Source: Daejeonella sp.
Lineage (GTDB): Bacteria > Bacteroidota > Bacteroidia > Sphingobacteriales > Sphingobacteriaceae
DNA: 64,000 nt
Direction: 5' to 3'
Assembly (NCBI RefSeq): GCF_030695525.1
Contig: NZ_JAUYSS010000048.1
Span: 1-64,000, forward strand
The translations under genes and the position numbers were made by a program. This document shows positions 9,971 through 34,559 of the stretch, in pieces. Within the stretch, counting starts at the first letter, position 1, and every line of letters starts with the position of its first letter. The notes below the pieces were generated by a model that was given only the letters and a program-made list of their open reading frames with translations, did not search any database and was not told the DNA's origin.

Positions 9971-11302
9971 TCACGATCCTTTCAGGTATTTCCTGAAGAA
10001 TTCAGGATAGAATTGCCAGGCATAAATAAACGTATTCCTGATACTCACATTCAGTTCTTTCTTCAGGATACTTTGACCGATGAAAAAACCGATGATATGC
10101 GCCGCCAGGGTGGCATAGGCAGCCCCGAGTACCCCAAATCTGCTGATGAAAATATAGTTTAATCCTATATTTATAGAGGTAACCACCAATACCACAAAAA
10201 ATGTCAGCCGGGTTTTCCCTATGGAGTCCAGTATATTCCCAAATTGCCTGCCATAAGGAGTAAAAAGGCAGTAAAGTAGCGTAATATGAAGCAGTGGAAT
10301 AGTATCCTTATAGTTTGTGCCGGCAACCAGTGTGACAACAAAATCCGAAAACAGGTAAAGAAATATAATCCCCGGAATCAGCAATGCGATCAGGGTTCCC
10401 ACTGATTTCTCATACAGGTACTTAATGCCAACTTTTCCTTCGGTCACCATACGCTTTGCACTTTGAGGAAAGACAATTACTGCAACTGCATTGGTTGGTA
10501 TGTCGAGCAGATTAGTGATTCTGACAGCCACATTAAAAGCACCTGCCTGAACAGGCGAAAGAATTGCCCCCAGCATCATCTGGTCAACAGTAACCGAAAG
10601 AATAGAACTTACTGAGGTTCCAAAAGCATATTTCCCGTAATTAAATAACTTTCTAATCCAGTCGGTATAGATTCTAAAAGAAATGGATAGATAGGGTCTG
10701 ACCAGGAAAAAAGATATAAGTGTCCCCGTAAGGTTGGTGCCTATCTGTACATAGACCAGATCGATGAGGTTGATATTGAGATTGTAAAAATAACAAATAG
10801 CCACATAAGAAAAGAAACCCAATTGCATGATGAAAGAGCTCAGAAAAATGCTTCTGAATTTGAGGTTCGCCTGAAGAATACAGTTAAATTGGGTCAGTAT
10901 ACCAGAAATGACAAAGGTTATACAATAGGTATTGAAGATTTTAACCAGTTCGGGAGCTTTCCAAATTGCTGAAAGAATGCTTCCAAATCCAAGAATGAAC
11001 ATGATGCAAATCAGACTTAGAATTCCACTGATAGTGAATGAGGCTGCTGTAATCTTATGATGCTCACTTTTATCCTCGGCTGCAATGAACCTGATCAATG
11101 CGTTTTGAAGCAGTCCTCCTCTGACGGTCTCTATGATCGTGGTAGTTACCATGAATAGTACCCAAACCCCGTAATCATTTGGCCCCAGAATTCTAAGTAG
11201 TATATAAAAACTTCCTATACTAAAAAAAACGCCGGATAGATTCTGTAGCAGTGAAAAAAAACCTGCTCTGATCCAGTAAAGATCCTTATTGAAGATCTTC
11301 AT
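9971..11302 (-). CDS. Wzx-type oligosaccharide flippase
   Basis: 443 residues with about 12-14 hydrophobic segments spread over the whole length, matching the polysaccharide biosynthesis/MATE-like flippase family (start IFNKDLYWIRAGFFSLLQN, then repeated small-residue-rich helices). It would flip undecaprenyl-linked repeat units across the inner membrane. The start ATG shares a base with the upstream gene's stop (TAATG at 11300-11304), which indicates translational coupling. It is the last gene of a GT2 / two-domain GT / flippase group and the only Wzx candidate for the locus. Confidence 0.85.
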   Translation of the reverse strand: MKIFNKDLYWIRAGFFSLLQNLSGVFFSIGSFYILLRILGPNDYGVWVLFMVTTTIIETVRGGLLQNALIRFIAAEDKSEHHKITAASFTISGILSLICIMFILGFGSILSAIWKAPELVKIFNTYCITFVISGILTQFNCILQANLKFRSIFLSSFIMQLGFFSYVAICYFYNLNINLIDLVYVQIGTNLTGTLISFFLVRPYLSISFRIYTDWIRKLFNYGKYAFGTSVSSILSVTVDQMMLGAILSPVQAGAFNVAVRITNLLDIPTNAVAVIVFPQSAKRMVTEGKVGIKYLYEKSVGTLIALLIPGIIFLYLFSDFVVTLVAGTNYKDTIPLLHITLLYCLFTPYGRQFGNILDSIGKTRLTFFVVLVVTSINIGLNYIFISRFGVLGAAYATLAAHIIGFFIGQSILKKELNVSIRNTFIYAWQFYPEFFRKYLKGS

Positions 11303-13113
11303 TACCGGGATTGGGGTTTTTCAACATACAGGTAAGTATCAATATGCTTGAACAGTTCATCATCGCTTTTTGCATGGTAGATTATTGCACCTGAAAGTTT
11401 TGGGTATAGTTTCTGATAACATTTAAAATGATGTTCAGGGCCTTTTTTTGAAAGGATCAGGTTTATACCTCCAAAATAACTTGCCAGAGTTGCTGTTCCC
11501 CCATGGGTTGAAATAAAATGGCTGGCATTTGCATAAACCATCAGTTGCAGATGATTGAAGTTAGTTGCATTGGCCTTATTTTCGTTAAATAAAGTTTCCA
11601 TAAGGATGACCTCCGGATGTTCCTCCTCAAGCCATTCAAATTCATGAAGGTCATAAATTACACTATCATCGACTGTAATATTTTGTGATCTCGGGCGATT
11701 ATAGATGATTGTATATTGGTCTCTTAGCCTTTTAATGATTTTGTCCAGTACAGGAATACTGAGGAAGCTGACAGGAACATCATCCCATTCCATATTATAA
11801 CGGTTTGCAATAATCAGGATTGGTTTATCATACACGTAAATTGTATTCTGATAGGTTTGTTTAAATGGCACCTTTTCCCATTTTTTAATATTGTAATCCT
11901 GGCTGTAGAGTATACGGGGGATTTCGAAATTGTAATTTCCTTCATTTGAGCGTTCTTCAAATGCCTCTTCATGATCCCTTGAAAAAAAGTATAACTCTTT
12001 AGAATATTTTGATGAACGTGTTTTATCCAGTGTGCCATTTTTAAAATGCCAGTAAGCGAATGGAAGGACGAACTGTAATTCAGGAGCAAATTCGCCATTG
12101 AACGAAATGGTTTTATAGTTCTTGCGGATAAAAAAATCCTTGACCAAATACCTTAGTTGGACAATCTGACAATAATAAGTATCCTTATAAAATTGCATGT
12201 ACTCTCTGGAAACACCTGAATACCTGATTCTGACATAAAGACTCAAAAACTTATTTAGTACTGCCTTGGAAAGGTCAATAAAACTGTTGCTTTCTTTTCT
12301 GAGTTTTGCAATATCTGATTGGATAGCAAAACCATGGCTGGTTCTAAGAAAACGGAGGTCATAATTATACCTGAATTGGCGATAGATATCTCTGACAAAT
12401 TTTATCAGGGGATTTTTGCTCAGCGTCAATGTCCCCCGAATTGTTGTACTTGGCTCTTCCTCCGGATTTATTTGTTTGAACAGGCTCTTGTATTCGTTAT
12501 AGAAAAGTCCTTTGCCCCTCTGCTGGAGAAAGGCTATACACATTCGGTACTCAGAACGGTCAACACTCACCTGCTCAGTGTAAGGACCGAATTTTTCAAT
12601 AAAATTTGATCTTCTCAAGTGTGGATGGTCACTGTAAAAATAGATTTTACGGTAATTTAATGACCAGGGTTTATAGTGCATTTGAGAAAAACCTTTTTCA
12701 AACGGAACGAGATGCGGGTATTTGATATAGGAATAAAAGCGGATGATATCCAGATCTTTATTTTTCTCTATGATTTCCAGTGCATCTTTAAACGGCTCCC
12801 CAAAAGTGGGTAGAGGTACGAAATCTTCCTGAACGTAGAGTGTATAGGGTAATGTAACCGCAGCTTGCCCTTTATTGATATTATTCCCCAGCCCACTATT
12901 AACTTCAGTTGTAACCAGTTTAAAATCAAAGTGGCTTTGAAGTTCTTTGATAGCATCCAAATGTTCGTCTAAACTTCCATCATCTGAAACAATAATTTCT
13001 TCAAAATTGTATTTAAGGTCTCTGCAGGTTTGCAGTAGACGCTCGAGTGAGCTGCTGCGATTATAATGGGTAATGAGTAAACTGACGTCTTTAAAAAAGT
13101 AGTCTGAAGTCAT
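11302..13113 (-). CDS. Two-domain glycosyltransferase: GT2 plus C-terminal GT-B-like domain
   Basis: 603 residues, about twice a single GT2. Residues 1-300 carry a GT-A fold: VSLLITHYNR, VSDDGS (acidic pair at 44-45) and YVQEDF (95-97) in place of the usual DxD. Residues about 410-603 look like a separate domain of another type, with ILIIANRYNMEW, a predicted Rossmann-like half, and ISTHGGTATLASYFGG near residue 545, recalling nucleotide-binding loops of GT61-like or other GT-B enzymes. The middle is basic and Tyr-rich. It is coupled to the flippase downstream and lies 24 bp after the next GT2. The identity of the C-terminal domain is uncertain. Confidence 0.75.
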   Translation of the reverse strand: MTSDYFFKDVSLLITHYNRSSSLERLLQTCRDLKYNFEEIIVSDDGSLDEHLDAIKELQSHFDFKLVTTEVNSGLGNNINKGQAAVTLPYTLYVQEDFVPLPTFGEPFKDALEIIEKNKDLDIIRFYSYIKYPHLVPFEKGFSQMHYKPWSLNYRKIYFYSDHPHLRRSNFIEKFGPYTEQVSVDRSEYRMCIAFLQQRGKGLFYNEYKSLFKQINPEEEPSTTIRGTLTLSKNPLIKFVRDIYRQFRYNYDLRFLRTSHGFAIQSDIAKLRKESNSFIDLSKAVLNKFLSLYVRIRYSGVSREYMQFYKDTYYCQIVQLRYLVKDFFIRKNYKTISFNGEFAPELQFVLPFAYWHFKNGTLDKTRSSKYSKELYFFSRDHEEAFEERSNEGNYNFEIPRILYSQDYNIKKWEKVPFKQTYQNTIYVYDKPILIIANRYNMEWDDVPVSFLSIPVLDKIIKRLRDQYTIIYNRPRSQNITVDDSVIYDLHEFEWLEEEHPEVILMETLFNENKANATNFNHLQLMVYANASHFISTHGGTATLASYFGGINLILSKKGPEHHFKCYQKLYPKLSGAIIYHAKSDDELFKHIDTYLYVEKPQSR

Positions 13114-13137
13114 AGTATCTGCAGATCAGGAGTTTCC

Positions 13138-13986
13138 TTAGGATTTTTTATTATCTGGTAATCTTGAATGCAAATTATAAAAAAAACGTTTAAGTTCTTT
13201 GAAGAAGCGAATAATAAGCGCGCCAGAGATACTTCCATCAAGCCGAAGGGTTCGGATCCCTGTCCAGGTTCTGGCTTTTTTTGCTTTTACCTGTTTGATC
13301 TTTCCGTATTTCATCAGGTCAAGGCAGAGTTGCCCGTCTTCACCTCTCCGGTTAATTTTTATAAAACCAACCTTCAGGCCATACTCTTTAAGATATCCCA
13401 TGCTCATTCCGTAAGCATTGAAATAGGGTCTGTTAACATGCCTGAATTCTGCAATGATATCTTTCATCAATTCGAAAATGCTCAGTTTCCAGCGCGGATA
13501 CCCTGGTTCACTAATAAAGGAATACCGGCCATATACACACACCACTTCAGGCTGCGATAGAACGCTGATCATTTCATCAAGCCAGCTATCAGGATACAGA
13601 CAGTCGGCATCACCCATTAAGATATACTTACCCAATGCATTTTCCTGTCCGAGTTGCCTTGCGGGTCCGCAACCCTGTACTTCTTCAAAAAATGATTTTA
13701 TATGTAATTGATCGAGGGTTTTTTGTGTCTGATCAGTGGAATTATTATTAACTACAATGATTTCGAAAGGAATAGTACTTTTTAATTTTGAAAGACTTGC
13801 GATACATCTAAGGATATTTACTTCCTCATTCCATGCGGCAATTACTATACTAACTAAAGGGGATTTACTTTGAATTCTGTCAAGATCAATGTTCACAGAT
13901 TCAAATACATCAGCGGGTATTTCATTAAAAGTCGCAAAAGAGTATTGAAACTGATTTAACCAATCTGGATTCTTAAAAAAATTCAT
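13138..13986 (-). CDS. GT2 family glycosyltransferase
   Basis: 282 residues. The GT-A core begins at about residue 43 with LVSIVIAAWNEE, then FEIIVVNNNSTDQT, and the metal-binding DAD at residues 126-128 (MGDADCLYPD). The CGPARQLGQENALGKY segment is typical of GT2 enzymes. There is no C-terminal membrane anchor, so it is likely cytosolic and membrane-associated. It is the first gene of the minus-strand group running to the flippase. It is expected to add one sugar to the lipid-linked repeat unit; the specificity cannot be read. Confidence 0.85.
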   Translation of the reverse strand: MNFFKNPDWLNQFQYSFATFNEIPADVFESVNIDLDRIQSKSPLVSIVIAAWNEEVNILRCIASLSKLKSTIPFEIIVVNNNSTDQTQKTLDQLHIKSFFEEVQGCGPARQLGQENALGKYILMGDADCLYPDSWLDEMISVLSQPEVVCVYGRYSFISEPGYPRWKLSIFELMKDIIAEFRHVNRPYFNAYGMSMGYLKEYGLKVGFIKINRRGEDGQLCLDLMKYGKIKQVKAKKARTWTGIRTLRLDGSISGALIIRFFKELKRFFYNLHSRLPDNKKS

Positions 13987-14322
13987 TATCTACATCCATT
14001 TAATAGGGTTTATGTTGAATAGCTATCAAAAGCTGGTACCTTATCCTAAACTGAAACCAAAGAAATAACATTCTTAGGTGTAATTTCTTCATTGATTCAA
14101 AAAATCCGGCTCTTATTACCTGCAAAAACCTTACCATCTTGCATTGTAAAATTTACCTATAAAGATAATTTTATTGATAAGACCAATAACTCATTAATTT
14201 CTGAAATATTTTATTCACATATATTGTTAATCTATAAATATTTTATTCAATTAAGAGTTTTCAATCTAAAAAGTTTATTTTGTTTTTCAATTGGTCCTAT
14301 AGTTCAAAGAGAAAAATATGTT
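13987..14322. other. Divergent intergenic region between GT2 and GT4 genes
   Basis: 336 bp, strongly AT-rich, lying between two divergently transcribed glycosyltransferase genes, so promoters for both should be here. I see no clean TAnnTTTG element on the plus side and no hairpin. A frame open from a TTG at 14092 runs through 14092-14322, but its composition (Ile/Phe/Lys/Tyr-rich, no family motif) argues that it is untranslated leader. Confidence 0.5.
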
Positions 14323-15498
14323 ATGTTGCCAAATCTTTCAGTTTATATTTTAGGTAATTACAGGCCTGGCATGGCCGATGGACTGGCCGAATTCAATTTC
14401 CAAAACGTTAATGCGCTGAAAGATAGCATTGATTTTCATTTTGTAGAATTTGATGATTCAGTAGAGATTGGCTTTTACGATTCAAGCACTATTGATCAGA
14501 TCCGGATTCATCGATTTGGCTCAAAAGGATTTCTTGCCCTGAAGCTCTCCGGTGAGTTTAAGAGATGGCTAAGTGAACTGACTGTGAAAAATTCAGTTTT
14601 TCATCTCAATCATATTTATAATTTTAATAACTATTTGGTTGCCAGATTATTAGTTCATTATAAGATTCCTTACCTGATAACACCTCATGATGCTTATGTT
14701 TATTGTAAAGTTTTCAGATCGAATCGGCCTTTAGTCAAAAGGTTATATCGGGATCTTTTTGTATACTTCATCGATAAATATGTATTTGATCATGCATCTT
14801 ATATTCATGCATTAACTAATCAATGTATTCCTTGTTTACGATTGCTTACTTCCCGTCCGATTATGGCGGTTGGTAATCAGGTGAAAGATATGCACCTTAC
14901 TTTGGACATGAATATCATGGAAGACCGGATATGTTTTATTGGCCGGTCTGATATTTACCAGAAGGGAATTGACCGGGTTTTGGCAGGGTTCAGCCTGTTT
15001 GTTAAGTCACAAAATGTCGCTTCATCGATTAGTTTAACAATTGTTGGACCGGCTGATCCTGAATCAGATCAATTAAGACAGGAACTTTGCAGGGATCTTG
15101 AGCTTGAAATAGGCAGGCAGGTTGTGTTTGCAGGTAAAGTTCAGGAAGTAGAGCGGAACAGGATTCTTAGCATATCGAAGGTATATATTCATCTTTCAAG
15201 ATTTGAAGGTTTTGGATTGAGTGTAATTCAGGCATTATCGGCATTTAAGCCTGTGATAGTTTCTAAACAGGTTCCGACTTCGGATGTTATAAGAGATTAT
15301 AAGGCTGGTATTGTGGTAGATAGTCTGACAGAAATCGCAGATGCTATTGCTTTTATTTTTGCGCTTTCGGATCAGGAGTACCTGCAAATGGCCAGAAATG
15401 CAAGACGTTGTTATGAGGAACAATTTCATCCGGATGTGATCAGGCCAAAATTACTTGATCTTTATCAGAGGGCAGCTTCAGTGGCTGACACCAAGTAG
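14323..15498 (+). CDS. GT4 family glycosyltransferase
   Basis: I choose the ATG at 14323 (391 residues), because MLPNLSVYILGNYRPGMADG begins a standard GT-B N-terminal strand and AAAGAGAAA lies upstream. A TTG at 14092 in the same frame would add 77 atypical residues. The C-terminal domain shows ICFIGRSDIYQKGIDRVL, VFAGKV and SRFEGFGLSVIQALSAFKPV. The GT4 E-x7-E signature is present as E-x7-Q (EGFGLSVIQ), so the second acidic residue is replaced. It is transcribed against its GT2 neighbour and followed 84 bp later by a methyltransferase on the same strand. Confidence 0.85.
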   Translation: MLPNLSVYILGNYRPGMADGLAEFNFQNVNALKDSIDFHFVEFDDSVEIGFYDSSTIDQIRIHRFGSKGFLALKLSGEFKRWLSELTVKNSVFHLNHIYNFNNYLVARLLVHYKIPYLITPHDAYVYCKVFRSNRPLVKRLYRDLFVYFIDKYVFDHASYIHALTNQCIPCLRLLTSRPIMAVGNQVKDMHLTLDMNIMEDRICFIGRSDIYQKGIDRVLAGFSLFVKSQNVASSISLTIVGPADPESDQLRQELCRDLELEIGRQVVFAGKVQEVERNRILSISKVYIHLSRFEGFGLSVIQALSAFKPVIVSKQVPTSDVIRDYKAGIVVDSLTEIADAIAFIFALSDQEYLQMARNARRCYEEQFHPDVIRPKLLDLYQRAASVADTK

Positions 15499-15582: not shown

Positions 15583-16314
15583 ATGAAATTAAGGAATCCC
15601 AGTTCAAGATTTGACCTCTCCATAAAACCTACAGACAGGGTACTTGAAGTTGGTGGGGGGCACAATCCTCATCCCCGTGCGAATGTTGTTGTTGATAAAT
15701 TTGTTGATTCCAATTATCACCGCAGTGGCGATATAAAAGTCTTAATCCACCAGCAATTTCTAAGTGCTGATGGTGAGGAGCTACCATTTGAAGATAAGTC
15801 CTTTGACTACGTAATATGTGCCCAGGTGCTGGAACATGTCGATGATCCAATCCGTTTTGTAAAGGAGCAGGTTAGGGTTTCTTCAATGGGCTATATGGAA
15901 ACCCCTTCCATTATCGGCGAATTTTTAATCCCAAAGGAATCCCATCGCTGGATTTTGCAGGAAATTGATAATAAGATCGTAATGTACGATAAAGAGCAGA
16001 TCGGATTTAGACCAATCATGGATTTTGGCTACGTGTTTCAGGAGTTTCTGCCAAAAAATTCTTTAGGGTTCAAAATCATGCAGCAAACTCATAGCGAGTT
16101 GACCATGATGAAATATGAATGGCAAGATGATCTTGAAATTCTGGTGAACCCCGACAGTTCTTATTACCGCGATTTTTTCACCAAGCCATGGGACGAAGAA
16201 GCTTGCAACAGGTTTTTATACAAGCGGACTTTAGGTAAGGAAGCTCTGTCGAGTTTTTCAGCATTTCTTGATATATGCCGCTCGGTATTTAAAAGCAAGG
16301 TGCTTCGAAGATAA
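15583..16314 (+). CDS. Class I SAM-dependent methyltransferase
   Basis: 243 residues. Motif I is VLEVGGGHNPHPRANVVVDKF (about residues 20-40), the acidic loop LPFEDKSFDYVICAQVLEHVDDP gives motifs IV/V, and METPSII resembles the family's usual post-motif strand. This Methyltransf_11-type protein sits among glycosyltransferases, so methylation of a sugar or of a glycan end is the likely role; that is inference from context. It converges with the GT4 gene on the other strand with 6 bp between the stops, leaving no room for separate terminators. Confidence 0.8.
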   Translation: MKLRNPSSRFDLSIKPTDRVLEVGGGHNPHPRANVVVDKFVDSNYHRSGDIKVLIHQQFLSADGEELPFEDKSFDYVICAQVLEHVDDPIRFVKEQVRVSSMGYMETPSIIGEFLIPKESHRWILQEIDNKIVMYDKEQIGFRPIMDFGYVFQEFLPKNSLGFKIMQQTHSELTMMKYEWQDDLEILVNPDSSYYRDFFTKPWDEEACNRFLYKRTLGKEALSSFSAFLDICRSVFKSKVLRR

Positions 16315-16320
16315 TGCGGC

Positions 16321-17532
16321 TTAGGATTTTCTGTTTTTAAGTGCATTATACATCAGTTCCGCAATCTCCTCTCCCCGTTTCTCCCAGGTGTTCTCTTTTG
16401 CAACAGTAATTCTGGCCTGTTTTAAATGAAGGTTATCTGTTTTAAGGGTATCTTCAATGGCATTGGAAAATGAAATAGAATCCCTGCAAAATGAAACCAT
16501 ACCATGTGTGAATTCTTCAAGATCAGGATTGAAATCAGTAGCAATGACAGGTTTTCCGGCTCCCAGATATTCAAATAATTTTAACGGGAAAATTGTCCTG
16601 CTGACTTCATCTTTTTTGAAGGGGATAATGGCTATATCGAATCCCTTAATTAATCCGGGCATATCCTGAAAAGGCAATCGCCCGATGTAATGCAAATTTG
16701 GAGTTTTAAGGAACCATTCAGGCACAAATTCTGGCATCAGCGGACCAGCAAATACAAAGCTCTTGTCAGGGTTAGCATCAATAACTTGCTTGATCAGATC
16801 ATAATTAAATCGTCTTTCAATGCTTCCTGCGTATCCAATTACTGGTCTTTTTATTCTATCTAAATGATGATTTATTTTAAGGCCATCGTCCAGGGCTTTT
16901 GAACTATGCTCAATATCGGCCGCATTGGGTATGAAATAGGTGTTGGGGTTCTGTTGTTTCTTGTCGTCATAGAGCATTCTGCTTGTACAAATGACCAGAT
17001 CACTTTTTAATACAAGTTCATTCTCGGAGATAATTCCGTGCTTCATATCATAGGGGATGATCATCGGATCTACACAGTGATATACACTAAGTGCCGGTTT
17101 GAGTGGATCAGCAATTCCCGGATAATGGAAGTTGAATGAATTGATATATATATAATCCCTGATCTTGTTTTTTCTGATGGCCATTTTCATCCGCTTCCGG
17201 ATAAGAAATTCATTAAATCGAAGAATCGAGCGGTATATTTTTCCTTCGGGAAGGAAATTTATGCTAATTAAAGGCGGACTGATGATGATTTTTAGATTTT
17301 CATCCTTGTCTGAAATGATGCCATCTGAAAATGGAGAAAAGTATTTTTTGCGTGCCTCTATCAGTTTACTGTTCTTCTTGTTGAAATAATCTTTCCAGGT
17401 GATGGGGTAGTCTATGTAATAAACAAAATTGTTTTTGGAAAGTTCTCTTGCAATATTAAAACTTGTTGACTGATCAGGACCATCAAATTTTGTCGCACCC
17501 AGAATAAAAATGTGTTTACCTTTCAGAATCAT
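16321..17532 (-). CDS. GT-B (GT4-like) glycosyltransferase
   Basis: 403 residues. The N-terminal domain begins HIFILGATKFDGPDQSTSFN; the C-terminal domain contains RPVIGYAGSIERRFNYDLI, LHYIGRLPFQDMPGLIKGFD and a donor-site segment PLKLFEYLGAGKPVIATDF. This is like the TuaH/teichuronic-type glycosyltransferases of EPS clusters. Its start overlaps the stop of the upstream acetyltransferase by 4 bp (17529-17532), so the two are translationally coupled. It is the last gene of the long minus-strand EPS run that begins at 26490. Confidence 0.85.
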   Translation of the reverse strand: MILKGKHIFILGATKFDGPDQSTSFNIARELSKNNFVYYIDYPITWKDYFNKKNSKLIEARKKYFSPFSDGIISDKDENLKIIISPPLISINFLPEGKIYRSILRFNEFLIRKRMKMAIRKNKIRDYIYINSFNFHYPGIADPLKPALSVYHCVDPMIIPYDMKHGIISENELVLKSDLVICTSRMLYDDKKQQNPNTYFIPNAADIEHSSKALDDGLKINHHLDRIKRPVIGYAGSIERRFNYDLIKQVIDANPDKSFVFAGPLMPEFVPEWFLKTPNLHYIGRLPFQDMPGLIKGFDIAIIPFKKDEVSRTIFPLKLFEYLGAGKPVIATDFNPDLEEFTHGMVSFCRDSISFSNAIEDTLKTDNLHLKQARITVAKENTWEKRGEEIAELMYNALKNRKS

Positions 17533-18149
17533 GGTTTAACTTTTTCCCATACCCTCGTTTCAGGGTTGTACTGTTTCACGATTCTGGCGGGATTCCCAAC
17601 GGCAACACAATATGCCGGAAGATCCTTGGTTACAATACTTCCTGCACCAATAATGGTATGCCGGCCGATACTGACTCCGGCGGTGATCACAGAATTTGCA
17701 CCTACCCACACATTTTCTGCAATGCTGATCTTAGAAGTACTAACCTTTTGCATAGTAGGAGGGGTCTCAATATCCTCATAGCTATGATTCATTCCTGAAA
17801 TGACTACATTTTGAGCCGTCATCACATGATCTTCGATCTCTACAGGTCCGATAATAACGTTTGAAACCCCAATAAATGACCTGCTACCAATCAACACATC
17901 CCCAACACCGTTATTGATTGTTGTAAAATCCTCGATAACTGAATAAGCACCCAATTCAAAGTTTTTATATGGAAACAAATCCATTTTGGTCCTCCAACGT
18001 ATGATAGAGCCTTTACCCCTGGTATGTTTGAATGGGTTGAGAAACATTCTTACCCATAAACGAGGACGATATTGATTGGGTGAAATAAGTGCCCAGCGGG
18101 CAACTTTCTTCAATGAATCATTAGATCTGATCAGGGATGTGAGCGACAT
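17529..18149 (-). CDS. Hexapeptide-repeat (LbH) O-acyltransferase
   Basis: 206 residues. The second half is a left-handed beta-helix of hexapeptide repeats (VLIGSRSFIGVSNVIIG, VWVGANSVITAGVSIGRHTI, IGAGSIVTKDLPAYCVAVGNPARIV), as in sugar O-acetyltransferases of the WcaF/Maa type; the His in NHSYED is the likely catalytic base. It probably decorates a sugar of the repeat unit using an acyl-CoA. It overlaps the GT4 gene downstream by 4 bp and lies 11 bp after the methyltransferase gene, inside one operon. Confidence 0.85.
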   Translation of the reverse strand: MSLTSLIRSNDSLKKVARWALISPNQYRPRLWVRMFLNPFKHTRGKGSIIRWRTKMDLFPYKNFELGAYSVIEDFTTINNGVGDVLIGSRSFIGVSNVIIGPVEIEDHVMTAQNVVISGMNHSYEDIETPPTMQKVSTSKISIAENVWVGANSVITAGVSIGRHTIIGAGSIVTKDLPAYCVAVGNPARIVKQYNPETRVWEKVKP

Positions 18150-18160
18150 TTTATGGATTT

Positions 18161-19258
18161 TTATTTCTCAAATATAAACATTGGATATTCCCCTTTTCTA
18201 CCGCAAAGTTCCGGCTCTTTTTCCTCTTTAGAATAAACCCAGTTTAAAATCTGCTTTCCATAAAGGGCTGGATGTATATAGTAACGCATGAAGGGTACAC
18301 TCAGGGATCTCCAGACAGCAAGTTTAAAAGGAGGCAGATTGTCCCGGAAATAATTGTACGTATGAGCATAGAAATAAAGTCTTTTTGCAGGTTCACCCTT
18401 TCCGAGAAGCTTACCGATCAGGCCTAATAAACGATTCTTTATAAAAACAAAGCCACGAAATGGAAGCAGAAAGAGGTTCATCCAGGCTGAATGTTTATAC
18501 CAGTCGTAAACTACCACCCCTTTACCTCCCTTTGCCAGTAATCTGTATAATTCCCGGATTGCAAGTGACTGCTCATCTTTGGGGATATGATAAATGGTAT
18601 TCAGGGATACAAAACCATCCATTACATTATCCTTAAAAGGCATATTACACATATCGGCAAGAACATAGATTCCTTTTTCCCCTAATTTTTTTCTTGCTTC
18701 TGACAATGCCTGAAATGAAAAATCTACACATACCCTATACGTGTAATTTGCAGAATACTGCAGATAATCGGCATATTGCAATGCCCCGGAAGCGGCATCC
18801 AGCATAAAGGTTCCTGATGGATTCAGATAGCGGGAAACACGGTCATGGCATTTTTTTAAATATTCCTTAGAAACCTCCCTCAGGTCTTCGTAAATAACCG
18901 CATCCTCATAATTGCCTTCTTCATTTACAAACCAACCCTTCTGGTTATAAAAATTTTGAACTAATTGTTTGTCCTTATCTTTTTCTTCCTTAATGAATTT
19001 ATCAGCGGAACGAGTCAATGCAAGCTCTTTCAATAAAATCACAATGCCATTTATGATAGGATAGATGTAGGATTGATCAGTTGCAATCAGACCCTGTTCC
19101 AATTCCTTGTTCACCAATTCGCCATCAGCTTGCCAAAGCTTTTGGCTGGCTGCATCGGCCTTGAGCATCACAATTTCTTCGTCCGTCAATAATCGAAGGT
19201 CTTGTCCGCTAAGCGGACATTTTAAGATTTCAATCCAATCCATATTCATTTCTGTCAT
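18161..19258 (-). CDS. Methyltransferase with N-terminal Trm112-like domain
   Basis: 365 residues. Residues 8-80 resemble a Trm112p-like zinc-ribbon domain (IEILKCPLSGQDLRLL ... YIYPIINGIVILL), but only one Cys (Cys14) remains of the usual set. The class I methyltransferase domain follows, with motif I as LDAASGAL at 153-160 (degenerate Gly pattern) and MPFKDNVMDGFVSLNTIYHIP later. A C-terminal segment of about 100 residues with basic and aromatic clusters may contact the membrane. Such fusions occur in glycan clusters; the substrate is unknown. The start may be the ATG at residue 4 or 6. The polymerase gene upstream ends 6 bp before it. Confidence 0.75.
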   Translation of the reverse strand: MTEMNMDWIEILKCPLSGQDLRLLTDEEIVMLKADAASQKLWQADGELVNKELEQGLIATDQSYIYPIINGIVILLKELALTRSADKFIKEEKDKDKQLVQNFYNQKGWFVNEEGNYEDAVIYEDLREVSKEYLKKCHDRVSRYLNPSGTFMLDAASGALQYADYLQYSANYTYRVCVDFSFQALSEARKKLGEKGIYVLADMCNMPFKDNVMDGFVSLNTIYHIPKDEQSLAIRELYRLLAKGGKGVVVYDWYKHSAWMNLFLLPFRGFVFIKNRLLGLIGKLLGKGEPAKRLYFYAHTYNYFRDNLPPFKLAVWRSLSVPFMRYYIHPALYGKQILNWVYSKEEKEPELCGRKGEYPMFIFEK

Positions 19259-19264
19259 TTTTTT

Positions 19265-20734
19265 TTAGACATTCAATATCTTCTGATTTTCTTCTTTCTT
19301 TTCCTTATCCAGGTTATAGGTTGCATCAATCAATGCTGCTACAAGGAAAAAATAAACATTAAGAGGGTACTGTGTAATAGCTTCCTGTGGGTAATTACCG
19401 ATGGTAATAGCATACACCATCAATACCATCGCAAGGCAGTAGCTTTTGAGTTCCGGATCCTCCATTTTAAAGTAATTCGAGATACCCTTTTGCAGAATGA
19501 TAAATAGCAGAGCACAGAAAATAAACAGGCCGATCCAGCCGGTTTCAACAGCTACCCTGACATAACCACTATCAGGTGGAAATGATGCCAAAAAAGAACC
19601 GGGGGAAAACTTTGCCCCCCACACTCCGGTGGAGCCAAGCCCCCCCCCAATAGGATGCGACCAGATATAAGGTTGGATCATCTTTTGATTCTGCGCCCTT
19701 ACATTGAAGGATGCATCATTAGATGGTTTAAATGCCGATTGAAACCGGTATAAAACGGGATTACTTGTTGGCACGAAAATAATAAAGGCCATAAAAAGGG
19801 CTGCCCCGGTGGTAATCAGCATAATCTGCCGGTTGAAAACCAATATGGTCAGCATTACCATAGCCGCCGGTAATAAAACATAGGCACTTCGGGTCCCGGA
19901 AAAGAGCATGTTTGATATAAAAAACATTGCCAAGACCGACAAGAATATCTTTTTTCTCATTGATATCTTTCCGAACATCATACCGATACAAAGCAGACTG
20001 CTAAGGATCATGTTATAAGAGAATACTGTTGGGTCAGAGAAAATGGAGAATTTTCGCCAAACTCCATTAATAAATAGCAGATCTCTGATTAATGGGTCAG
20101 AATACAGGTAAGCCTCTTCATATCCCGCAAAACCTATAAATTGTTGTCTGTATCCATTGATTCCTGCAAAAATACTTAAGCCCAACCATAGCTTAATTAT
20201 GAATCTGATAAACTTTAAATCCCGGATATGATAACTGAATATAAAATAAGTCAGCATGACAATAGCCATACTTCTTATGGTATAGAGCCAGGCCATTTTG
20301 GATTGAGCTACCGGATTTGCAACCAGTATGAAATTATAAATAATCCAAATAGATATCATCAGGCTGATCGGGCTACTTAGGAACGACCAGTCGGGATGGT
20401 ATTTAAGTTGAATAAACAGTCCAATAATTAATAAGGCCAGAAGGCCATCCATCAAAGTACCCATTGGGAACTTAACCAGATTAAGCCTTAGTATTAACAT
20501 GATTAAATAAGCAGCGATTAATAGGGCCGTAATCCCAAATTTGGGTTTGGATATTACAGCAAAGGCTATGATCGGGCCTATTAAAAGAATTAATATAATA
20601 GCCGCACCTTTGATTTGGGCAACATTTATGATATATGCAAACAATATAGAAATAGCAAGCAAGACGATAAAGCCCGCAGGTTTACCCAGGGTTTTTGCGA
20701 ATGATGTTATGCTATTTAGTCCAGATCGTATCAA
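19265..20734 (-). CDS. O-antigen ligase/polymerase family membrane protein (Wzy-like)
   Basis: 489 residues with about 11-12 membrane segments. A large periplasmic loop near residues 340-400 contains SHPIGGGLGSTGVWG and PDSGYVRVAVETGWIGL, the Wzy_C/O-antigen-ligase signature region (the PxxG and xSxxxxxxxExG pattern). It would polymerise or ligate lipid-linked glycan on the periplasmic side. It is the only polymerase candidate in the locus and lies between the membrane GT2 gene (with a small reading frame in between) and the Trm112-methyltransferase. Confidence 0.85.
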   Translation of the reverse strand: MIRSGLNSITSFAKTLGKPAGFIVLLAISILFAYIINVAQIKGAAIILILLIGPIIAFAVISKPKFGITALLIAAYLIMLILRLNLVKFPMGTLMDGLLALLIIGLFIQLKYHPDWSFLSSPISLMISIWIIYNFILVANPVAQSKMAWLYTIRSMAIVMLTYFIFSYHIRDLKFIRFIIKLWLGLSIFAGINGYRQQFIGFAGYEEAYLYSDPLIRDLLFINGVWRKFSIFSDPTVFSYNMILSSLLCIGMMFGKISMRKKIFLSVLAMFFISNMLFSGTRSAYVLLPAAMVMLTILVFNRQIMLITTGAALFMAFIIFVPTSNPVLYRFQSAFKPSNDASFNVRAQNQKMIQPYIWSHPIGGGLGSTGVWGAKFSPGSFLASFPPDSGYVRVAVETGWIGLFIFCALLFIILQKGISNYFKMEDPELKSYCLAMVLMVYAITIGNYPQEAITQYPLNVYFFLVAALIDATYNLDKEKKEENQKILNV

Positions 20735-20756
20735 TTAAATCAGGTTTTTATTAAAA

Positions 20757-20885
20757 TTAGAGAAAAAGGATTTTTAAGAAAAAGAAAAACACAGTAATAA
20801 ATGCCAGCGCCATGGAGCCATATTTACTGAAAAGAAGGAATATTTCTTTGCTTGTTTTTCTATCCTTTATGTGGTTATATCTCAT
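20757..20885 (-). CDS. Probable 42-residue single-span membrane protein
   Basis: An ATG at 20885 opens a 42-codon frame (TAA at 20757). It reads a basic, hydrophilic start (MRYNHIKDRKTSKEIF) followed by one hydrophobic segment (ALAFITVFFFFLKILFL). The pattern of positive N-terminus then one span is what a small membrane subunit looks like. It sits in line with the EPS genes, 51 bp after the GT2 and 22 bp before the polymerase, and fills the only sizeable gap in this part of the run. No Shine-Dalgarno is seen, as is normal in the phylum. No family is recognised; chance is possible at this size. Confidence 0.45.
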   Translation of the reverse strand: MRYNHIKDRKTSKEIFLLFSKYGSMALAFITVFFFFLKILFL

Positions 20886-20936
20886 ATTTAAAACGTTATG
20901 ATCAATATTAACTAATTATATTAAAGTCATCAAATG

Positions 20937-22124
20937 CTAATCTTCAGGATATTTTTTTGGAAGATGTTTAGTAGCTACTGAAATTTTGTTTGCCGACTTT
21001 ATTTTAAGTAATGACAACACCTGAAGGAACATGAATTCAGGAATGTTTATTAAGGCTTTATAAATTCTCGGATCTGTATTTTTTTGGTATAATGCAATAC
21101 CGAAACTGGCCAAGAAGCAAAAAAATGCCCCGAACCATGCAAAAGCTAAGATTGGATTCAGAAAGATATTGAATATCAAACAAATCAATGAGAGAATAAG
21201 GAAGATAAAAAGGGGTGGTCTGATTAATATTAATCCAAACAGGAACTGATTAAGACTGAAATTCTGAAGGCCACTTGCCAGTAGCTTAAATCCATTTGAA
21301 AAGTATTTAAACCAGGAATTTATCCATCTTGACCTTTGCTTGACCAGTTGATCTGATTCAGAGGTCTTTTCATCATAAACGATTGCTTTTTCTGCAAAGG
21401 CAATTCTTTGTCTGCGTTTTACAATGGCATATTGGAGAACTTTGTCAAATCCTGCACCCTGTATTTCCTTGTTTTCCAGACAGTCGCGAAAAAGCCCGAT
21501 TGTAAATGCCATCCCCGATCCGGAAAGCGTTGCAGATGAGCCCAGACTAAATAAAACTTTTCCATCGTAAAAGTGATAGAAAAGATCTCTTGCAGCATCA
21601 AGAGCCGCTATATTGGTGTCCAGATTCTTGGCTTTTCTTTTTCCTTGTACTGCGTGAAAACCCATATTGAAATATTCATTGAGCTCAATTAAGTAATTCC
21701 TGTCGACAATATTATCACTATCAATTATGGTTAGATGAGTGTGTTCCCTTCTAAAATTTCTGATCGCATAGAAATGTGAACTGGTATTACTTGCCAGGGT
21801 TTGCTCAGGCCTGAGCAGAATCACCCGATCATCGTTGAAATGCAGATTGGATATATCGCATTTATCTGCAACAACATAGACAAGAAATTTGCTGTAATTT
21901 AATTTCAGGATTGAATTTACGGCCGCCGGAATAAGATCAGTCTGTTCATATGCAGTGACTATTACGGCATAATCAATTTCATCCTCCGGCTTAACTTCTA
22001 ATGACTGTTTTTTAAGTAAGCTCGTAATTTTGTAAAAAAATAGAAAAATTAGTGGTAAAAGAAGATTATATCCTATTAATGCCTGGATTATTATCCAAAA
22101 ATACAATGTGATATGATACAGCAT
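20937..22124 (-). CDS. Membrane-bound GT2 glycosyltransferase (processive type)
   Basis: 395 residues: an N-terminal membrane span (about 5-32), a GT2 domain with AVIVTAYEQTDLIPAAVNSI, the catalytic DSD at 135-137 (TIIDSDNIVD), and QRSRW at 263-267 (the Q/RxxRW motif of processive enzymes such as cellulose and hyaluronan synthases). Two C-terminal spans follow at about 290-350. It may build a chain on the cytosolic face or elongate lipid-linked glycan. It begins one base after the copolymerase gene stop, so it is tightly coupled to it. Confidence 0.85.
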   Translation of the reverse strand: MLYHITLYFWIIIQALIGYNLLLPLIFLFFYKITSLLKKQSLEVKPEDEIDYAVIVTAYEQTDLIPAAVNSILKLNYSKFLVYVVADKCDISNLHFNDDRVILLRPEQTLASNTSSHFYAIRNFRREHTHLTIIDSDNIVDRNYLIELNEYFNMGFHAVQGKRKAKNLDTNIAALDAARDLFYHFYDGKVLFSLGSSATLSGSGMAFTIGLFRDCLENKEIQGAGFDKVLQYAIVKRRQRIAFAEKAIVYDEKTSESDQLVKQRSRWINSWFKYFSNGFKLLASGLQNFSLNQFLFGLILIRPPLFIFLILSLICLIFNIFLNPILAFAWFGAFFCFLASFGIALYQKNTDPRIYKALINIPEFMFLQVLSLLKIKSANKISVATKHLPKKYPED

Positions 22125-22125
22125 A

Positions 22126-24321
22126 TCATTCTAATACATTTGCATGGTCAATGTGTTCTTCAGGTTTTCCCTGTTGCTTGACTTTATTCAGTATCCAGCC
22201 AATAAACTGGCCATTGAGTGTAGTCAGGTAATTAATATGCTGATTTTTTACTTCATTTAAAGTTTGGTCGGCTTCAAATACGCTTAAAGTTTTGTCGGTC
22301 AATAAAATCCATTCTTTTGCTTTGTTTAGGGCTTCAAGTGGAGGGGTTTCAACAAGAATAACATCGAAGTGTGAACGCAATTGTTCCAGTCTTTCCAGAA
22401 TAGTTTCTTCGTCGCTTACTTCCAGCAATGATTTATCACCACCCCGGTTTCCCATGACCATTATCCCGGAATTGAAATTAATCCCACCCAGATCACCTGA
22501 GTGCAGAAAATCTTCGAGAAACAATTTAGTATTGGAGTTTTTGGTAATAGAAGGATTGTCGAAGTTTCCGTCAATAAGCAAAACTTTCTTATTCACCATA
22601 ACATAAGTATAGGCGATGCAGGCAGAAATTAGTGTTTTCCCTTCTCCTTCACTGATACTTGTAATACTTAAGACCTGGCCACGGTCTGATGTTCGGGCGA
22701 GTTCACGGTTCACTTCGAAGCGTGTAGAACGTAATTGCTTTTTGAACTCACGCATTTCTGCGGTTCCATGCAGATTTTTCCAGATACCCTTCAAATCAAG
22801 TGTCGACTTGCCCACGAGGTTGAGGTACCCAAGTACCGGAGATTTGGTAAGTAATACAAGGTCTGCCGGGCGGCGGATGCGGTTATCCAGGAAGAACATG
22901 ATGAACAGGATAATTACACAAAACACCCCACTTAGTATGCCACTGATAATTACCAAGAGCATTTTTTTAGATGGGAGAGGTAGACCAGGCATAGCTACCT
23001 GCGCTTGTCTGAGTTTGACAGGAAACTCAGCTTCCATCGTTACTTTATTGTATTGTGCCAGTAAATCCTGGTACTCTTCACTTCCTGTTTGTATATCCCG
23101 TTCATAGCTTTGAATAACAGCTTCATGAGGAACCAGTTGCTCGAATTTTTTACTCATGATGGCAAGCTGATTTTTCAGCGAATTCAAACCATAAACAGTC
23201 CGGTCAAGTTCAATCTGAAGGTCAAGCTTCTTTTGGATAAGTGCGGTTTTTGAACTCAGGGGATTATCTGTGTATTTATCCGACATTGTATTGATTTGGG
23301 CACTTACAATCTTTTGCAGCGAATCTATTGAAGTCTTGTATCGCTCATCAAAATCACTCTGAATATACTTATCCTGCAAGGCATTCATTTGAGCCTTTGT
23401 ACCAATTATCCTTTGGTTAATATCCGTAAAGGTCGCTTCCATGTAGCGGCGGTCAACCGGATCGAAACGTTTATCAATGTTGGCAATGGTTCCTTTAATA
23501 GCCACAATATCTTTCTCAGCCTGCTGCATTCTCAACTCATAATCTGCAGTTTGGGTATAGATCTGTGATGATTGCTCATTCAGATTAAGTATTCTATTCT
23601 GAATTTTATATTCACGCAAACCGTTGATTCGGGCTTGAAGAGTGTCAGATTTTATTTTCAAAAGGTTCTTTAGAAAGTTTACAGAAGAACGCTGATTTTC
23701 TTTTACCAGAACGGTATAATAGTCGGTAAAAATGTTAGATAAGGTGTTGACCACAAAAGCAGATAATTCTGAATTTTCAGATTGAAAATCAATAAAAATA
23801 AAATCTGTCGTTCCGGCACGGTAAATCAGTAAATCATACAATAAAGATTGATAATCATAACCCATCGATCCCAGTATCCGATGCAATCCTTCTTCATCCT
23901 GCTCCCTAAGGTTCAGACCCTCTTTTTTACTCAATTTTTCTTTGAACACACTTAATGCATGTTTTTTAGCCTCAAGATTCAATGTTTTCAGAAGTTCACT
24001 GGGTTCTCTGAAAGGCTTGGTAGTTAGGTCATGAATGATAAGCCTGTAAGAAACAAGGTCAATCATGCTTTTTGAATTCATGACCTGCACCATATTGACG
24101 AATTTCTGATTGATTCTTGACTCCTGTAAAACACTGGCCTCCGAAAGTGCCATTTGCTGAGTTTCGTCAACAATCCCTGTTGCAATCTGGGCTTGGGCAG
24201 GATAAACATCAGGAAGATTTCTTACAATATAATAAGTTACCATTACCGTAATTAGCGGCACAGTAATTAAAACTATTTTATAGCGTAATAATAAATCGAT
24301 GAATTTTTTTAATTCTTCCAT
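22126..24321 (-). CDS. Wzz/Wzc-like polysaccharide copolymerase with BY-kinase-like ATPase, no Tyr tail
   Basis: 731 residues. A first membrane span (about 13-33) is followed by a large periplasmic part with coiled-coil character (about 200-430), the second span (about 453-477), and a cytosolic P-loop ATPase. Walker A reads ISEGEGKT (about 556-563), Walker A' LLIDGNFD (about 581-588) and Walker B VILVETPP. The usual G-rich SxxPGEGKS is altered, and A' lacks the normal DxDxR. The C-terminus (KQQGKPEEHIDHANVLE) contains no Tyr cluster, so autophosphorylation of the classical Wzc type is unlikely. By family it controls chain length and links synthesis to export. Confidence 0.85.
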   Translation of the reverse strand: MEELKKFIDLLLRYKIVLITVPLITVMVTYYIVRNLPDVYPAQAQIATGIVDETQQMALSEASVLQESRINQKFVNMVQVMNSKSMIDLVSYRLIIHDLTTKPFREPSELLKTLNLEAKKHALSVFKEKLSKKEGLNLREQDEEGLHRILGSMGYDYQSLLYDLLIYRAGTTDFIFIDFQSENSELSAFVVNTLSNIFTDYYTVLVKENQRSSVNFLKNLLKIKSDTLQARINGLREYKIQNRILNLNEQSSQIYTQTADYELRMQQAEKDIVAIKGTIANIDKRFDPVDRRYMEATFTDINQRIIGTKAQMNALQDKYIQSDFDERYKTSIDSLQKIVSAQINTMSDKYTDNPLSSKTALIQKKLDLQIELDRTVYGLNSLKNQLAIMSKKFEQLVPHEAVIQSYERDIQTGSEEYQDLLAQYNKVTMEAEFPVKLRQAQVAMPGLPLPSKKMLLVIISGILSGVFCVIILFIMFFLDNRIRRPADLVLLTKSPVLGYLNLVGKSTLDLKGIWKNLHGTAEMREFKKQLRSTRFEVNRELARTSDRGQVLSITSISEGEGKTLISACIAYTYVMVNKKVLLIDGNFDNPSITKNSNTKLFLEDFLHSGDLGGINFNSGIMVMGNRGGDKSLLEVSDEETILERLEQLRSHFDVILVETPPLEALNKAKEWILLTDKTLSVFEADQTLNEVKNQHINYLTTLNGQFIGWILNKVKQQGKPEEHIDHANVLE

Positions 24322-24329
24322 AGTATCGG

Positions 24330-25007
24330 CTACTGAATTTCTTCGATCTTTTTAGTCAATAATTCTTCCAGAGATGCCTTGGCGATCAGAAAATTTGATT
24401 CCGCTGCAATTTTAGATTGTAATGCTCCTGAGTAGGACATTTGCATTAATGTATATTGTTCAAATGTGATCTCGCTTTTTTCAAATTTGGTTTTGACATC
24501 ATTACTGACATTTAGGGCATCTGAACTCAATTTTGTTTGGAGTCGCAAATTTGAAAGTGCCTGGACATAGGTAAAATATCGTCGTTTTACTTCAGTTTCG
24601 AGAGTTAAATGGTATTCGTCAAGATCATGTTGTGCGAGTTTTACACTTTCTCTAGCCTGTTTTACATTTCCTGGTTTCTGGAGTATTGAACTAAGGTTGA
24701 AATTGAAGGCAACCTGATATCCGTTAAAAAATCTGGGAACTGCAATGTCTAATGTATTGTTAGGATTATAAATATAAGAGAAGGAAAACGCGTCGAGCCA
24801 GGATAGTTGTTCCTGACCTACCGTTGTTTTAGCAACCTTGATACGACCCTCAAAACTATTCATCCTGGGATAATTTTCTTTGGCTGTAGCAATAAGTTTT
24901 TCAAGGAAAACATATGAAATGTCTGTCATCATAGTTTCCTGCGACTTAACAGAATTATTTATTAGAAGTAAAACAAACGTTGTTAAAAAAAAGAATTTCC
25001 TGAACAT
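24330..25007 (-). CDS. Half-length TolC-like outer membrane efflux protein
   Basis: 225 residues, about half of a normal TolC/OEP protein (430-480). A signal peptide (about 1-22, ending VKSQE) precedes one TolC-type repeat: a helix-strand start (FLEKLIATAKENYPRMNSFEGRIKVAKT), a YIYNPNNT/AFNFNLS beta stretch, then long helices with LAQHDLDEYHLTLETEVKRRYFTYVQA and IAAESNFLIAKASLEELL. One structural repeat could assemble as a hexamer instead of a trimer; that is inference. No frameshift is apparent and both flanks are intact genes, 3 bp and 8 bp away. It lies where a Wza-type export gene would be expected. Confidence 0.8.
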   Translation of the reverse strand: MFRKFFFLTTFVLLLINNSVKSQETMMTDISYVFLEKLIATAKENYPRMNSFEGRIKVAKTTVGQEQLSWLDAFSFSYIYNPNNTLDIAVPRFFNGYQVAFNFNLSSILQKPGNVKQARESVKLAQHDLDEYHLTLETEVKRRYFTYVQALSNLRLQTKLSSDALNVSNDVKTKFEKSEITFEQYTLMQMSYSGALQSKIAAESNFLIAKASLEELLTKKIEEIQ

Positions 25008-25010
25008 ATT

Positions 25011-26120
25011 TTAAAATTTTTCCTTGTGCAATATTACCGGCAATGTTTTAATTAATATTTCAAAATCGAACCAGAACGAATATTTTGACGCGTAGAAGTT
25101 ATCAAATTTTTTTCGTTCCCGCTCGGAAATATCTTTTTTTCCTCTGCTTTTTATTTGCCACAATCCTGTAACACCTGCCGGACCCATAAAACGCTGTGAC
25201 CAATCATTTGATGTCAGCATTTCAGCTTCATAAAGTGGTAATGGCCGGTTTCCAACCAATGACATATCTCCTTTTAATACATTGAAAAGCTGGGGCAGTT
25301 CATCTATACTGGTCCTTCTGATAAAGGATCCGAATCGGGTAATTCGTGGATCATTAATCAATTTTACAAAAGTTGTTCGTTTTTTTGAATCATCAACCTC
25401 AACGTCTGACTGTTCATCGCTCTTATATAGATTACGGTCAGATAAATCTTCCAACTGGCTTTCGGCTCCTATATGCATAGATCTGAATTTGTAGAAATCA
25501 AAAATATTGTAACCCGTTCCTACTCTTTTGCTTTTATAGATAATTGGGCCCTTCGAATCCAAACGTATTATTATTGCAGTTAAAATTAGAACCGGAGAGA
25601 AAAGCAGGATGCATATTGCGGAAACAACTACATCAAAAATGCGCTTCATCTGAGGCAATTTGTAAATTACATCTGAGTTTGCCAGTACAGAAAGCTGTGG
25701 TTTTATAAGCTTGAATTTAACTAAAAAATGGAGTCTCTCGATCAGATGTTCTATAGGAAAGGGCATTACATAAAAGTCATGCACCTTTGATTTTAATGCA
25801 CTCGCTTTCCACGCTTTATCTTCCTGGGATGCAATCAGCACAATGATCAATTCACGGTAAAGTGGATTCTTTTTAATCTTTTCAATATATTTAAAACATT
25901 TACCCTCTGAATCAGTTTCGATCAGTATTACATCTGGTAAAGTTAAAATAGACTGATTATCAAGAAAATCCTGAAGCTCTTCCAGATTCTGATGTTTATT
26001 TATATGAAATTCGCTTGGTAATTCCTTTAAAAGCCAGGCAGTAGAATCAGTGCCCATATAAGCAATGCTTAAATGATGCACGGAATAAATTGCGTCCCTG
26101 TGCCTAGTTAATTGCGACAT
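25011..26120 (-). CDS. Pseudo-receiver domain fused to an undecaprenyl-phosphate sugar transferase
   Basis: 369 residues. Residues 17-135 follow the receiver fold: the strand VILIET has Glu68 where the phospho-acceptor Asp should be, the conserved Lys before Pro is Met119 (VMPFP), and the acidic pair of strand one is absent. A membrane hairpin (about 160-186) then leads into a bacterial sugar transferase domain (GPIIYKSKRVGTGYNIFDFYKFRSM, RRTSIDELPQLFNVLKGDMSLVGNRP, VTGLWQIKSRG). The enzyme would start repeat-unit synthesis by moving a sugar phosphate to undecaprenyl phosphate. Its start overlaps the true receiver gene by 17 bp. Confidence 0.85.
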   Translation of the reverse strand: MSQLTRHRDAIYSVHHLSIAYMGTDSTAWLLKELPSEFHINKHQNLEELQDFLDNQSILTLPDVILIETDSEGKCFKYIEKIKKNPLYRELIIVLIASQEDKAWKASALKSKVHDFYVMPFPIEHLIERLHFLVKFKLIKPQLSVLANSDVIYKLPQMKRIFDVVVSAICILLFSPVLILTAIIIRLDSKGPIIYKSKRVGTGYNIFDFYKFRSMHIGAESQLEDLSDRNLYKSDEQSDVEVDDSKKRTTFVKLINDPRITRFGSFIRRTSIDELPQLFNVLKGDMSLVGNRPLPLYEAEMLTSNDWSQRFMGPAGVTGLWQIKSRGKKDISERERKKFDNFYASKYSFWFDFEILIKTLPVILHKEKF

Positions 26121-26490
26121 TATTCTTTAGTAGTATTTCAGTTATTGACAATTTTAATTCAGTAGGGTTGAATGGCTTTTTAAAATAACAATCGGCCCTG
26201 AATGGCATTTGCTCAACTCTCTTTTCAAGATTATCTGCACCTGATAAAAGAATCACCGGAGTGTCTCGGTAATATCCACTGATTTTCAGGTTTCTAATAA
26301 ATGATCCTCCATCTATATAAGGCATCTCCAAATCCGATATAATCAGTGCAGGATCATTGCCATCTTCAAGCCAGCTTATAGCATCAGCACCATTTTGTTT
26401 AATCACAAGGTCGTAGTCTTTTGACAGTATGAAATTGAGCAGCTTGAGGATACTCAACTCATCATCCACAACCAGAATTTGTTTCTTCAT
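26104..26490 (-). CDS. Single-domain response regulator (CheY-like)
   Basis: 128 residues, only a receiver domain: acidic pair Asp9/Asp10 (LVVDDE), phospho-acceptor Asp53 (ISDLEMP), Ser83 (LLSGAD) and Lys105 (FKKPF), so all active residues are present. There is no output domain, so it must signal by protein contact. It is the first gene of the EPS run and overlaps the pseudo-receiver/sugar-transferase gene by 17 bp, which suggests the two products are made together and may interact. The cognate histidine kinase is not in the window. Confidence 0.9.
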   Translation of the reverse strand: MKKQILVVDDELSILKLLNFILSKDYDLVIKQNGADAISWLEDGNDPALIISDLEMPYIDGGSFIRNLKISGYYRDTPVILLSGADNLEKRVEQMPFRADCYFKKPFNPTELKLSITEILLKNNVAIN

Positions 26491-29570: not shown

Positions 29571-29966
29571 TTAAAGTTCCTGAAGAATTTGACTTGTAAG
29601 TGGTTTACCAATAAACTTGGATACCAGGTGATTTTCTTTTACCCTTCTGATGTCCTTTGGATCCAAAGATGAGGTGAGGACATAAATTTTAACTTTATCG
29701 GGTCCCAGATCAGGCAGTTCCATTAATGCTTTAAGAAATTCAAATCCATTCATTATGGGCATTCTCAGATCCAAAAATATTACTTCGGGAAGTTCTTTTC
29801 CTTCAAGGTATAAATCCCTTATATAGTTAAATGCTTCTTTTGGAGATTCTATTACGGTAATAGACTCTGCGAAATCGCTATTATCTAATATCTTTCGATT
29901 GATCAGATTGTCTATGTAGCTATCATCTACCAGTAATACACTTTTGTATTTGAAGGAAATCATCAA
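29571..29966 (-). CDS. Single-domain response regulator
   Basis: 131 residues, receiver only, with Asp14/Asp15 (LVDD), acceptor Asp66 (FLDLRMP), Thr98/Ser99 (LTSS) and Lys121 (IGKP) all present. The form with long loops (YLEGKELPEVIFLD) is common in Bacteroidota and often works with hybrid kinases. It has no DNA-binding domain. It sits between the TolC gene (54 bp) and the kinase gene (2 bp); no histidine kinase is near, so its partner is unknown. Confidence 0.85.
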   Translation of the reverse strand: MMISFKYKSVLLVDDSYIDNLINRKILDNSDFAESITVIESPKEAFNYIRDLYLEGKELPEVIFLDLRMPIMNGFEFLKALMELPDLGPDKVKIYVLTSSLDPKDIRRVKENHLVSKFIGKPLTSQILQEL

Positions 29967-31343: not shown

Positions 31344-31400
31344 ATATATTAATAACCTAATGATAGAGCCTCTTTATCCGGCCTGATCTTAGTGTATTTA

Positions 31401-34508: not shown

Positions 34509-34559
34509 AGGACAATTTTTTGATTATTTAATCGGGTAAATTATTCGAATAATCTTGAA

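Follow-up and report, generated by a model that had tools for sequence, protein, structure and literature searches.

A Daejeonella sp. contig (NZ_JAUYSS010000048.1, positions 1 to 64,000, hereafter the window) carries on its minus strand, from 26490 to 16321, an exopolysaccharide gene run in which a half-length TolC-like protein (hTolC) stands beside a Wzc-like polysaccharide co-polymerase (PCP). Judged from the genes and the predicted fold, the Wzx/Wzy exopolysaccharide probably (roughly 0.72) leaves the cell through a homo-oligomer of hTolC instead of a pore made of Wza or another outer membrane polysaccharide export (OPX) protein. This role as outer-membrane exit is proposed because of the gene order, the exclusion of OPX genes, the co-divergence of hTolC and Wzc, the fold of hTolC and the existence of three genomes that have the module but no OPX gene. 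In the literature searched, which left many subscription papers outside, no description of a half-length TolC or of a TolC–PCP/Wzc pairing was found. The parts all come from known superfamilies, and what appears to be new is the pairing of a single-repeat TolC with Wzc. The run comprises, in order:

26104..26490, minus strand: CheY-like single-domain receiver, phosphorylatable (PF00072, E 5e-18; D9/D10, D53, S83 and K105 kept across 28 homologues)
25011..26120, minus strand: polyprenyl-phosphate sugar-1-phosphate transferase, a monotopic phosphoglycosyl transferase (PGT), with an N-terminal pseudo-receiver (Bac_transf, E 1e-58; receiver match sub-threshold)
24330..25007, minus strand: hTolC, predicted single-repeat outer membrane efflux protein (OEP)/TolC-like channel subunit, 225 aa (PF02321, profile 1–186/187)
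22126..24321, minus strand: Wzc-like PCP-2a with a bacterial tyrosine (BY) pseudokinase domain and without a Tyr tail (Foldseek match to Wzc, motifs, Tyr counts)
20937..22124, minus strand: membrane glycosyltransferase family 2 (GT2), EpsU-like (PF13641, E 4e-30; conserved in the module)
19265..20734, minus strand: Wzy-type polymerase/O-antigen ligase family (PF04932, E 7e-12)
18161..19258, minus strand: methyltransferase, a variable cargo gene missing in many relatives (PF08241)
17529..18149, minus strand: hexapeptide acyltransferase (PF00132)
16321..17532, minus strand: GT4-like glycosyltransferase (PF13692)

The receiver and PGT genes overlap by 17 bp and the PGT, hTolC, Wzc and GT2 genes are spaced by 1–8 bp, so that these genes are probably co-transcribed.

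The sequence-only reading of this DNA had stated that the run lacks any Wza/SLBB gene and that a single-repeat TolC-like protein of 225 residues takes that place, and both statements hold. No PF02563/SLBB gene was found in the run. Outside the run, the window genome contains two OPX genes with long SLBB-type products (open frames of 839 and 826 aa), each followed by its own Wzz, and the candidate of a dedicated Wza encoded elsewhere in this genome was rejected on that ground. Across the 66 hTolC genomes, any PF02563 gene that shares a contig with hTolC is at least about 80 kb away from it (the nearest in G718, contig 12). In G547, G573 and G681, all from one family, PF02563 matched nothing at all; the SLBB matches of these three genomes fall in proteins devoid of PF02563, and the receiver, PGT, hTolC, Wzc and Wzx are present. 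All four genomes examined from that family have hTolC.

Pairing with Wzc is the rule. Among 51 non-duplicate hTolC loci, Wzc is the next gene downstream in 42 and is present in the fetched stretch (up to about 20 kb) in 47. A further 20 loci, mostly divergent ones, yielded 17 such direct pairs; of the other three, one has an insertion beside a contig end and two, from the same family, have hTolC at the end of a Wzx/Wzy cluster. In total, Wzc immediately follows hTolC in 59/71 loci and is found within the fetched stretch in 64/71. The two proteins also diverge together: distances between hTolC proteins and between their Wzc partners correlate with r 0.94 over 43 pairs, the best of 2000 permutations, which ignore shared ancestry, reaching 0.36. 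Two small genomes from the same genus (L024 and L025) lack the receiver, have a PGT cut down to its pseudo-receiver part and miss GT2 and Wzy beside it; hTolC and Wzc are nevertheless intact. In one family (f107; L167, L171, L175 and L176), the Wzc partner has 914–933 aa, almost 200 residues more than elsewhere.

The Wzc-like protein of the window matches Wzc cryo-EM chains by structure (Foldseek, E 1e-21) and Wzc by sequence profile (E 1e-42), and it combines the helical-arm periplasmic domain and the BY-kinase fold of a Wzc-type PCP-2a. For comparison, 20 Wza regions were taken from relatives; 18 of these regions yielded a total of 19 Wzc proteins, mostly encoded beside Wza. When 61 Wzc proteins were placed in a tree, one branch with a support of 100 separated the 42 hTolC-linked from the 19 Wza-linked proteins, although at least 10 genomes contribute to both sides. 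The last 60 residues contain a mean of 8.0 Tyr in the Wza-linked set (a Tyr-rich tail in 18/19) versus 1.4 in the hTolC-linked set (rank test p 2e-9, relatedness ignored). Walker A is kept in both sets (GK[TS] in 48/49 hTolC-linked proteins), but in the window protein Walker A' reads D-x-N-F instead of D-x-D-x-R, and Walker B has mostly Glu across its homologues. The position of the second Asp of Walker A' holds Asp in 19/19 Wza-linked proteins, whereas about 54 hTolC-linked ones have Asn in 47 and Asp in 3; at Walker B, Asp in 18/19 Wza-linked proteins is opposed to Glu in 43 hTolC-linked ones. The deepest hTolC-linked branches have a C-terminus that ends in a basic stretch such as GEIPKKRS. 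The claim that the Walker motifs are altered and the C-terminal Tyr cluster absent thus stands for Walker A', Walker B and the tail, but not for Walker A, which is intact. The separate Wzc clades, the loss of motifs and Tyr and the co-divergence of the two proteins speak for an ancient replacement of Wza by hTolC as the partner of Wzc; the loss of Tyr-kinase features would then go together with the change of outer-membrane partner.

hTolC consists of one complete OEP domain preceded by a typical signal sequence. Its homologues were searched for in Bacteroidota. A protein search matched it in 19/60 relatives (open frames of 226–340 aa), the strongest matches among 395 genomes across the phylum were open frames of 226–326 aa from many families, and a class-wide search added further families; ordinary two-repeat proteins turn up among the matches of the 395-genome search below about E 1e-15. 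The homologues are thus single-repeat across many families, mostly with 225–300 aa. In six genomes scanned with PF02321, full-length proteins generally gave two matches and the protein of the module only one. The plasmids searched gave no match. An AlphaFold2 model (mean pLDDT 86.8) shows a helix, a strand, a loop, a strand and a long helical hairpin, and it matches a single repeat of CmeC, OprM, VceC and TolC (Foldseek, VIA-align). In both strands, hydrophobic residues on the outside alternate with Ser/Thr/Asn/Gln/Gly on the inside, as expected, in this model, of a barrel wall with a polar lumen. The protein would therefore correspond to one TolC repeat that must oligomerise: since each subunit brings two strands, a 12-strand barrel like that of TolC would take six copies and a 16-strand barrel eight. 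In a tree of repeats, hTolC forms one group (SH-aLRT 86) outside both repeats of the full-length OEPs, the three groups (hTolC, repeat 1 and repeat 2) being connected with weak inner support. The tree thus favours neither a single-repeat ancestor nor a derived half. One single-repeat OEP protein (L102:9409-12000) adjoins a dynamin-like GTPase gene and not Wzc.

Given that hTolC has half the usual length, it might be a truncated or decaying full-length TolC, and in 18/22 cases the C-terminal repeat of the full-length OEP does obtain a slightly better profile score. This explanation is hardly tenable. All close homologues and most of the distant ones have a single repeat, a complete OEP domain and a stop, no full-length homologue having been found in close relatives, and the hTolC clade lies outside both repeats. 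The dN/dS relative to near relatives is 0.04–0.06 (about 0.05), which indicates strong purifying selection, and the neighbouring genes are only 3–8 bp away, so that no missing half is hidden in the flanks. OEP proteins usually work with HlyD-type adaptors, and hTolC could instead be part of an independent efflux or type I secretion system, located in sugar clusters by chance, whose adaptor and pump are encoded elsewhere. Three loci (L038, L183 and L184) in which hTolC ends a Wzx/Wzy cluster with no Wzc nearby would fit such a system. However, the direct adjacency of Wzc in most loci and the tight co-divergence make it very unlikely, as does the window itself: no ATP-binding cassette (ABC), resistance-nodulation-division (RND) or HlyD component is among the genes identified in its sugar cluster, while the full-length TolC of the window is encoded together with HlyD and RND genes of its own.

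A more serious alternative, although still an improbable one, is that hTolC is an accessory outer-membrane protein that anchors Wzc or exports a small modifying molecule or an enzyme, the polymer leaving through a shared OPX protein encoded elsewhere. Several observations weigh against an exit through hTolC, and the first of them suits this alternative. A PF02563 OPX gene is present somewhere in 63/66 hTolC genomes and might act there in trans; the three genomes without it are draft metagenome-assembled genomes, 92–96% complete, from one family only; Wzc is missing from the fetched stretch in 7/71 hTolC loci (a contig end or an insertion lies at some of these); some lineages do not have the receiver and PGT beside hTolC; and neither the permutation nor the Tyr-count statistics take shared ancestry into account. 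Nevertheless, three module-bearing genomes lack any PF02563 match, both OPX genes of the window genome adjoin their own Wzz, and the Wza-linked loci of relatives have their own separate Wzc clade. An exit through hTolC is the preferred reading. The suggestion that the run encodes an export machine unlike Wza–Wzc is likewise supported by the conserved gene order in other Bacteroidota, the Wzc pairing, the half length of hTolC and the lack of an OPX gene dedicated to the locus.

The first two genes had been read as a CheY-like receiver and a sugar transferase bearing a dead receiver, and the conservation of their residues agrees. The phosphorylation site of the receiver is kept (D53 in 27/28 homologues and K105 in 28/28), while the N-terminal domain of the PGT has the outline of a receiver from which the acidic DD pocket is gone, with Glu at the acceptor position in 21/24. 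The PGT of several distant families is without a pseudo-receiver (253–284 aa), but a receiver gene still precedes it. In Myxococcus, the single-domain receiver EpsW was experimentally shown to activate the initiating PGT EpsZ by direct contact (PMC12802240). As in that system, a phosphorylatable single-domain receiver and an initiating PGT are encoded together in one pathway; here, the two genes are adjacent and the PGT bears a fused pseudo-receiver, likely a docking site. It is because of the EpsW/EpsZ precedent that docking of the receiver on this pseudo-receiver is proposed. By this analogy, the receiver would most likely control the PGT rather than stand in for Tyr autophosphorylation of Wzc. 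Of the phospho-relay previously suggested in place of Tyr autophosphorylation, receiver control thus remains plausible, but with the PGT and not Wzc as its most likely target.

Taken together, the export process could be viewed as follows. Once phosphorylated, the receiver would dock on the pseudo-receiver of the PGT and switch on the synthesis of repeat units, an activating effect being presumed. Wzx would flip these units and Wzy would polymerise them. Chain length would be set by the Wzc-like PCP, whose long helical arms in the periplasm would meet the helical barrel of hTolC, leading to a continuous channel. The Wzc assembly would no longer be cycled by Tyr phosphorylation, the nucleotide-binding pseudokinase ring serving as an ATP-dependent scaffold. 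At the outer membrane, a hexamer of hTolC would give a barrel resembling that of TolC and an octamer would give one that fits an octameric PCP.

In group 1 capsule export of Escherichia coli, a Wza octamer works with a Wzc octamer (PMC12881504). The locus described here has in common with it the Wzx/Wzy pathway and a Wzc-fold PCP-2a with long periplasmic helical arms, but differs by the lack of Wza, the single-repeat TolC found instead, the lack of a Tyr tail and the altered Walker A' and B. With the outer membrane factors TolC, OprM and CusC (PF02321), hTolC shares the OEP domain, i.e. two strands and a helical hairpin per repeat. Unlike them, it has one repeat and not two, which precludes the usual trimer, and its presumed partner is a PCP and not an HlyD protein with an RND or ABC pump, for which no adaptor or pump gene was identified nearby. 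Another alternative to Wza for the Wzx/Wzy pathway is the composite EpsY/EpsX translocon of Myxococcus, made of a PF02563 OPX protein and a single-chain barrel of 18 strands (PMC9601211). It needs a short PF02563 protein and a barrel of 16–18 strands, neither of which was found at the hTolC locus; no large barrel gene was recognised in the sugar cluster of the window. Also in Myxococcus, EcpK, a BY-pseudokinase with a basic tail, works with the PCP EpsV, Tyr control being lost (PMC12004946). The PCP would likewise be controlled here without Tyr phosphorylation and, in the deep members, the C-terminus is basic and not Tyr-rich, the difference being that the pseudokinase forms one protein with the PCP and retains Walker A.

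According to the literature cited above, Wzx/Wzy polysaccharides need an OPX protein to leave through the outer membrane. A coupling of hTolC to Wzc would be another exit route and would explain Wzx/Wzy clusters without Wza. We lean slightly towards a further class of translocon, in which six or eight single-repeat TolC subunits dock straight on a PCP without OPX protein or adaptor, with a stoichiometry free to match an octameric PCP, and which possibly retains a surviving unduplicated TolC ancestor. Such a translocon may merit separate classification should export be demonstrated, and it would provide a natural single-repeat TolC for the study of how the duplicated TolC channel arose.

The remaining genes of the sugar cluster lie beyond the run:

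15583..16314, plus strand: methyltransferase, conserved beside the run in close relatives (PF08241; synteny)
14092..15498, plus strand: GT4 glycosyltransferase (PF00534)
13138..13986, minus strand: GT2 glycosyltransferase (PF00535)
11302..13113, minus strand: GT2 glycosyltransferase, a two-part protein (PF00535)
9971..11302, minus strand: Wzx-type flippase (PF13440/PF01943)

The flippase and the two GT2 genes (9971–13986) are thus on the strand of the run, beyond two plus-strand genes, and with them all usual parts of the Wzx/Wzy pathway are present save the OPX gene. No Rfam match was found in window positions 8000–30000. The closest named relatives of the window genome are Daejeonella and Pedobacter (Sphingobacteriaceae).

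The window carries, some 3.5 kb upstream of the sugar run, a classical RND pump operon (30021–35630, minus strand) that encodes a two-repeat TolC of 440 aa, an AcrB-like pump and an HlyD-like adaptor; it offers an internal contrast to hTolC and its position is kept in several close relatives. Next to it come a second single-domain receiver (29571–29966, minus strand) and a BadF-type ATPase gene (28720–29568, minus strand), and in close relatives genes of the same sizes occupy this place, with the RND operon on one side and the sugar run on the other. Near the sugar cluster, at 275–6127 on the plus strand, are encoded a cadherin/Ig-like adhesin with a CHU_C type IX secretion signal, a PorP/SprF protein and a PD40-OmpA protein. 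Genes sized like this cassette lie between the receiver–PGT pair and hTolC in several Pedobacter-like genomes (L029:3545-9339; L031; L050; L056).

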